A DNA stretch of 64,000 bases, from the NCBI GenBank assembly GCA_916610825.1, contig OU744454.1:14150836-14214835 (forward strand). Direction: 5' to 3'. The notes below the pieces were generated by a model, which saw only the letters and a list, made by a program, of their open reading frames with translations, did not search any database and had not been told where the DNA came from. Origin of the DNA: Haliclystus octoradiatus (lineage: Eukaryota > Cnidaria > Staurozoa > Stauromedusae > Haliclystidae). The position numbers and the translations under genes were made by a program. The first letter of the stretch is position 1. Each line of letters starts with the position of its first letter. Below are positions 7,523 through 34,354 of the stretch, piece after piece.

Positions 7523-7558
7523 CTGTTTTTTCTTTGTCATCTGTTTCTGGGAATGTTC
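7523..7558 (-). CDS. Exon 19: short GTFP-type linker, last resolved exon
   Basis: 36 nt, phase 1-1, encoding GTFPETDDKEKT and starting with the same GTFP as exons 11 and 14. Acceptor attcag, donor gtattt. At least one more exon with a stop must follow at lower coordinates, and I could not identify it. Confidence 0.58.

Positions 7559-34354: not shown

Follow-up and report, generated by a model that had tools for sequence, protein, structure and literature searches.

Does a domain thought to be bacterial form part of the extracellular proteins of an animal? This question is raised by a gene of the stalked jellyfish Haliclystus octoradiatus (class Staurozoa) that lies in a stretch of 64,000 bases, called the window here (C11:14150836-14214835, window base 1 being C11:14150836). 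The published genome description (PMC9975415) gives the jrHalOcto1.1 assembly of this species as 262 Mb in 33 scaffolds with a mitochondrion of 18.3 kb; our genome searches covered 261,861,806 bases in 33 contigs. On the minus strand of the window, 19 exons running from 34354 down to 7523 splice into a single stop-free frame, in which a head of IGFBP, Kazal, VWC and Kunitz modules precedes a series of repeats. The profile and the predicted fold of these repeats support membership of the YbaY/YscW/pilotin family. We lean slightly towards one gene for a large secreted, disulfide-rich mosaic of the extracellular matrix or mucus that would carry pilotin-type repeats.

The reading frame, its head and its repeats

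Splicing of the genomic sequence bears out the nineteen exons of the earlier sequence-only reading: all introns have GT-AG ends and are phase 1 throughout, except for a phase-2 intron inside the pair formed by exons 3 and 4 (Table 1), and their mean size in the window is 1273 bases (n = 18 introns). Exon 3 was initially low in the ranking of exon candidates (score 3.7); since its omission leaves 86 stops in the frame, the count of 19 is right. The pattern of the exon 3/4 pair recurs left of the window. In a phase-free exon search, 11 of the 15 internal candidates scoring at least 8.7 were phase 1 at both ends, where random phases predict one in nine; one of these 11 was discarded and three were re-bounded, as were three of the other four, and the codon scoring, having used this gene's larger exons as its training set, is not independent of the finding. 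The discarded candidate (18012-17980) is in phase but has a weak pyrimidine run at its acceptor.

The head domains named by the sequence-only reading were all recovered by Pfam over curated cut-offs. Exon 1 holds an ATG, a hydrophobic stretch read by eye as a signal peptide, and then the IGFBP match (E 7e-08, 33.4 bits against a cut-off of 28). Kazal_2 is matched in exon 2 (E 7.4e-07, 29.6 bits), VWC in exon 6 (E 1.6e-07, 32.0 bits against 27.6) and Kunitz_BPTI in exon 7 (E 3e-18, 66.2 bits). The VWC-like pieces in exon 5 (17.4 bits) and behind the Kunitz domain (18.2 bits) fall under the VWC cut-off, and the split cysteine motif of exons 3 and 4 has no Pfam family over cut-off. Relatives of the head in the PDB are agrin (1.3e-10), IGFBP7 (2.2e-7), FSTL1, HTRA1 and follistatin, the solved relatives of the IGFBP part being IGFBP7, SIBD-1 and HTRA1. 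The best PDB match of the Kunitz domain is SmCI (4bd9; 4.2e-36), and all six cysteines are present when counted by eye in the alignment. Its P1 place by BPTI numbering presumably carries a tyrosine.

Behind the head, the repeats R1 to R5 are each about 120 residues long, each occupy a single exon (375-408 bases) and are separated by one or two short linker exons. In their alignment 33 columns are invariant, including those of SC, GWC and GDY. Five is the right number for the window, as the sequence-only reading had it, and the total is at least seven: a genome search with R3 found R6 (C11:14149961-14150329) and R7 (C11:14148724-14149089) left of the window. Both continue the frame, which then comprises 22 exons and 1584 residues with no stop, its weakest exon being one of 18 bases before R7. 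Among the seven repeats, 19 of 21 pairs have a ratio of non-synonymous to synonymous substitution rates of 0.21-0.45, and the remaining two pairs are saturated at synonymous sites. Because of these values we conclude that the repeats evolve as protein.

That the repeats form a tail, as had also been claimed, holds in that they follow the head and is doubtful in that the protein probably continues. R7 ends in a GTAAGT donor. The intron behind it contains, within 5 kb of R7, an open retrotransposon frame of 1274 codons (L022:3640-7461, plus strand), Gypsy-like by eye and opposite in strand to the gene. Beyond this element lie VWC exons on the strand of the gene, three of the four tested being over the cut-off (40.0, 65.1 and 33.4 against 27.6 bits), followed by split cysteine-motif exons to at least window position -19972. 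A search for start exons between R7 and this VWC array, confined to exons of at least 40 bases with a good phase-1 donor, gave two candidates, neither of them like a signal peptide. Since no usual start exon precedes the VWC exons within these limits, one gene seems likelier than two, and judged from the sequence the array probably belongs to the same gene as the repeats. Reading 40 kb leftwards from the window did not reach the 3' end of the gene, and a search of the window and these 40 kb for a ZP exon that could form this end gave nothing better than E 0.5. A ZP-like stretch at E 1.1 lies in frame-broken DNA and was rejected as the 3' end.

Relation of the repeats to YbaY, YscW and the pilotins

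The sequence-only reading had likened the repeats to YbaY/YscW and had proposed a profile and structure comparison with PF09619 and YbaY; both comparisons proved favourable. R1 and R3 pass the curated PF09619 cut-off (Table 1). R2 and R4 were scored as longer frames; R2 stays below the cut-off and R4 gives no hit to the family at E 1. When E up to 1 is allowed, the family is matched by four of the five repeats and by 13 of 23 copies, and no animal family outranks it in Pfam scans of the repeats. Searches of the genome with single proteins reached further than the family model. Profile-profile comparison with bacterial YbaY domains gave 97.2%, 95.3% and 96.1%, two of these three alignments spanning only the first ~75 of 96 columns. 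At 96-97% probability, the aligned part includes the D-x-S-x-A-D motif; for the L027/L028 group it takes in the bacterial YbaY T-D-T motif as well. R3 was modelled by AlphaFold2 with a predicted local distance difference test score of 90.1 and a predicted template modelling score of 0.83. For two predicted structures VIA-align placed the same two bacterial pilotins, 5wec and 2yjl, at the top, 1.2-4.5 Z units above all else shown in both lists.

When 23 jellyfish domains and 10 bacterial ones are placed in a tree, a single branch separates the two sets (support 98); 17 of the 30 inner forks are open, so that the tree is silent on the number of origins. None of 86 prokaryotic and 70 viral stretches chosen by pattern match encodes a relative of the five repeats (tblastn 1e-3), and a single-domain jellyfish copy has no match among plasmids (tblastn E 1). 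Among the papers listed by the literature searches, none points to an animal YscW/YbaY domain, none combines YscW with Kazal or YbaY with cnidarians, and none is a structural study of this family; in papers on the Yellow Sea the YscW hit is probably an abbreviation. It is possible that Pfam already holds some animal members of PF09619. The modules and the domain family are known; for their combination and host these searches gave no counterpart.

Two cysteines, C26 and C86 of R3, are common to all 23 aligned copies and lie in the SC and GWC motifs of the gene. The C4 copy (L035) and the broken frame L033:6223-6453 were omitted from this alignment; when copies outside it are counted, 24 of 26 have the full pair. 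In this gene the repeats end in a half that reads GWC...W-x-x-x-GDY where bacteria have F-x-T-D-T, and the T-D-T motif is retained in copies of a second mosaic gene region, described below.

The module elsewhere in the genome

The domain is not confined to this gene and forms a sizeable family. The union of five genome searches with different copies gives 25 distinct places at E 0.01, which is a lower bound for the genome; two of them carry a stop. C11 carries the seven places of this gene, eight more at 1.196-1.220 Mb and another at 1.994 Mb; a further eight are on C5, and C4 has a single one. With R3 as the only query, 17 places were recovered at E up to 1, of which this gene accounts for seven. 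Several of the C5 copies are single frames with a hydrophobic stretch behind the ATG. The copy at C4:11.646 Mb (minus strand; L035:5129-5263 and 5657-5878) is split by an intron and starts at a methionine, with no signal peptide by eye.

The second mosaic (C11:1.195-1.225 Mb, plus strand, within L025-L028, C11:1190000-1229999) has nine frames that carry the module. In the same orientation it holds thyroglobulin type-1 (6.3e-36), Kazal (1.2e-07), VWC (1.5e-10), ZP-N (1.7e-15) and ZP-C (3.9e-07) matches; a proline/glutamate-rich repeat stretch lies at L025:9149-10000. At C11:1.99 Mb a single module copy stands between two Kazal exons. At C11:14.096 Mb (L126, C11:14087000-14096600), on the same minus strand as the window gene, ZP-N comes after a paralogous head, whose IGFBP exon has 36% identity to exon 1 and whose Kazal exon has 48%; no repeat was found in these 9.6 kb (best profile E 0.13). 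From these three places it follows that inhibitor, growth-factor-binding and ZP modules recur near the repeat module or its head. IGFBP matches number at least 12 in the genome, and on C11 IGFBP exons were detected at only two places. On C1, nine IGFBP-type matches occur within 330 kb on both strands (C1:35877027-36204715); most of them miss the first half of the profile, and one contains a stop.

Table 1. Exons of the proposed mosaic gene in window coordinates, with the support for each.
Exon	Content	Position	Strand	Support
1	Start codon, signal peptide (by eye), IGFBP domain	34054..34354	-	Pfam IGFBP, PDB relatives
2	Kazal domain of follistatin/agrin type	31941..32150	-	Kazal_2 over cut-off; agrin, FSTL1 and follistatin in PDB
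3	First half of split VWC-like Cys motif, phase 1 to 2	31110..31176	-	Frame requirement, strong GTAAGT donor
4	Second half of split motif and Cys-rich stretch, phase 2 to 1	29774..29979	-	Exon search, frame
5	VWC-like domain	28086..28316	-	VWC E 0.0055, below cut-off
6	VWC domain	26330..26548	-	VWC over cut-off
7	Kunitz, then VWC-like domain	25263..25655	-	Kunitz_BPTI; VWC part below cut-off
8	YbaY/YscW-like repeat R1	23846..24220	-	PF09619 22.8 bits, cut-off 22.6
9	Proline-rich linker	22896..22961	-	Exon search, frame
10	Repeat R2	21303..21680	-	Five-repeat alignment; PF09619 19.6 bits, below cut-off
11	GTFP-type linker	19900..19941	-	Exon search, frame
12	Linker	17137..17196	-	Frame
13	Repeat R3 (structure-modelled copy)	16126..16503	-	PF09619 23.5 bits; AlphaFold2 model
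14	GTFP-type linker	15648..15689	-	Exon search, frame
15	Linker	11958..12029	-	Exon search, frame
16	Repeat R4	10266..10664	-	Five-repeat alignment
17	Linker	9837..9878	-	Exon search, frame
18	Repeat R5	8408..8815	-	Five-repeat alignment
19	GTFP-type linker; next exon (R6) left of window	7523..7558	-	Frame

The introns of the gene contain an array of 113.7 AAT copies, all matching at 100% (20739-21079), and tandem arrays at 32392-33107 (179 bases x 4.0), 30484-30951 (156 x 3.0) and 26988-27596 (128 x 4.8); translations of the 179-base unit resemble, by eye, frames at many other places in the window. Elsewhere in the window, an exon at 49445-49681 on the plus strand is like the splicing factor U2SURP/SR140 (PDB 9r8v, 7.9e-20), and 53793-54071 belongs by eye to the same gene. 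An Rfam scan of the window returned 0 families. On the mitochondrial contig C33 (18,316 bases), cox1 reads with code 4, AGR standing for arginine, and lies on the opposite strand from the remaining standard genes seen; between about 16.2 and 17.5 kb one stretch occurs in inverted copies. ARAGORN at default finds only tRNA-Trp and tRNA-Met there, its mitochondrial mode adding three doubtful tRNAs. C33 also has long frames beyond the standard genes, one of which looks like a DNA polymerase, and the layout of the contig is reminiscent of the linear mitochondrial DNA of medusozoans.

Interpretation and comparison with known systems

If the frame is one gene, its signal peptide would send the protein out of the cell, where the cysteine pair would close a disulfide and stabilize a beta-sandwich of periplasmic type. 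The repeats, together with the short acidic or proline-rich linkers, may form a rod that presents the head and itself binds partners. The head would act on neighbouring proteins: the Kunitz domain with its P1 tyrosine may block chymotrypsin-like proteases, the Kazal domain of follistatin/agrin type probably serves binding rather than inhibition, and the VWC modules may bind ligands of the TGF-beta/BMP type or cross-link the protein. The bacterial-type sandwich would then be a shuffled spacer or binding module carrying an inhibitor head, and phase-1 exon shuffling could have spread it through the genome into other mosaics. The secretin-pilot function, which needs a bacterial outer membrane, would not have been kept.

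Several results weigh against this reading. The gene model is a prediction from genomic sequence; only exon 6 of the four VWC-type pieces in the head passes the VWC cut-off, and in the VWC array beyond the left edge of the window the initial exon has no Pfam match. With regard to the repeats, their matches are mostly confined to the first half of the PF09619 profile, a six-frame genome search with the PF09619 model scored 9 candidates with none at 1e-3, an NCBIfam scan of the five repeats gave one irrelevant match and nothing relevant, and the five-repeat profile had no match at E 10 among PDB sequences. Foldseek ranked 2yjl only fifth and eighth, after pollen-allergen and transthyretin chains among others; our estimate is unchanged by this lower rank because the best match stays as it was. 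The structures 5wec and 2yjl, released in 2018 and 2011, may have been learned by AlphaFold. Finally, the C4 copy lacks both cysteines and the broken frame L033:6223-6453 lacks the first, which leaves our estimate where it was because the two copies fit the disulfide reading; the cysteine-free C4 copy is possibly an intracellular form that hints at a state before secretion.

The head (IGFBP to VWC), the repeats and the VWC array could instead be transcribed separately, as two or three adjacent genes. The frame could end at 7515 if exon 19 reads through its donor, the 1274-codon retrotransposon frame stands between R7 and the VWC exons, and the nearby paralogue has IGFBP, Kazal and ZP-N only in the 9.6 kb covered. 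Nevertheless, every join is in frame, no separate signal peptide is visible by eye in the first repeat exon, the phase-1 start-exon candidates of at least 40 bases with good donors do not look like one either, and the IGFBP exons detected on C11 keep to two places, so that we regard separate genes as unlikely. A little more weight, though still on the unlikely side, goes to a protein that is mainly an antagonist of growth factors (BMP/TGF-beta or insulin-like) of the CRIM1/chordin kind, with the repeats as mere spacers: the IGFBP7-like IGFBP head and the one VWC over cut-off, with three more left of the window if these belong to the same gene, speak for such a role, but the Kunitz domain here and the thyroglobulin and Kazal domains beside the module elsewhere suggest protease control equally.

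The remaining alternatives concern the repeats themselves. They could be a generic animal beta-sandwich, Ig-like or transthyretin-like, whose likeness to YbaY/YscW is convergent; the lead of the two pilotins in both VIA-align lists and the motifs held by the profile alignment argue against this, and we consider it improbable. Bacterial contamination or a very recent bacterial transfer would account for a Pfam family and closest solved folds that are bacterial, but is hardly credible for repeat exons that lie between spliceosomal introns on a 16.7-Mb contig, with an animal splicing-factor gene adjoining. The G+C content at third codon positions is low (0.29 in the repeat exons and 0.36 in the head exons, with a G+C content of 0.32-0.36 in the window), and neither the search of prokaryotic and viral stretches nor the branch that splits jellyfish from bacterial domains points to a recent donor.

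To return to the secreted mosaic that we favour, we speculate on its history. A bacterial YbaY/pilotin module could have entered an early cnidarian (or have been retained from deeper ancestry), gained a disulfide and a symmetric phase-1 exon, multiplied to at least 25 places and become an animal extracellular domain class of its own, found in small secreted proteins and in rods of seven within giant inhibitor mosaics that include ZP-domain matrix proteins; it might serve the mucus or matrix defence of a sessile jellyfish. We hold this scenario tentatively and would not yet rely on it. Gland cells of Hydra secrete Kazal-type inhibitors with bactericidal activity (PMC5090036), and for this reason a defence role is plausible for a cnidarian protein; we give about equal weight to a part in assembling the matrix or controlling growth factors. 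If the scenario is true, a domain thought bacterial joins the animal set of extracellular modules. One genome would then show an apparent series of intermediates, from a cysteine-free copy lacking a signal peptide through single-frame secreted copies and a copy between Kazal exons to mosaics with at least seven copies, and this series would allow direct study of how a bacterial-type domain was made into an animal matrix module. For protein engineers and immunologists, the gene would offer a probably disulfide-bonded pilotin fold beside a protease inhibitor.

Among known systems, the closest to the repeats are YbaY, YscW and the secretin pilotins, namely E. coli YbaY, the alternative type II pilotin of V. 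cholerae (5wec) and the type III pilotin of P. aeruginosa (2yjl), which share the D-x-S-x-A-D core and, over the whole domain, the predicted fold. Unlike these, the aligned jellyfish copies have the cysteine pair, the repeats of this gene have their own second half, and they stand as tandem phase-1 exons inside a multidomain secreted protein with no lipobox by eye. Functional pilotins have a lipobox cysteine behind the signal peptide and one domain per protein; here at least seven copies follow what appears to be an ordinary signal peptide. The head follows the order of IGFBP7 and HTRA1, with signal peptide, IGFBP and follistatin-type Kazal, but continues with VWC-type domains, Kunitz and repeats in place of an Ig or trypsin-like protease domain. 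CRIM1 and chordin-like VWC proteins likewise combine an IGFBP head with several VWC-type domains, are further marked by a transmembrane anchor or antistasin repeats, and differ from this gene in the Kunitz, Kazal and YbaY/YscW-like modules that lie in between. With the multi-Kunitz inhibitors SmCI (4bd9), TFPI and bikunin the gene shares the six-cysteine Kunitz domain, present here as a single copy within a mosaic. Within the same genome, the second mosaic likewise joins Kazal, VWC and split VWC-like domains to the module, all running in one orientation, and adds thyroglobulin type-1 repeats and a ZP domain to what is seen in this gene.
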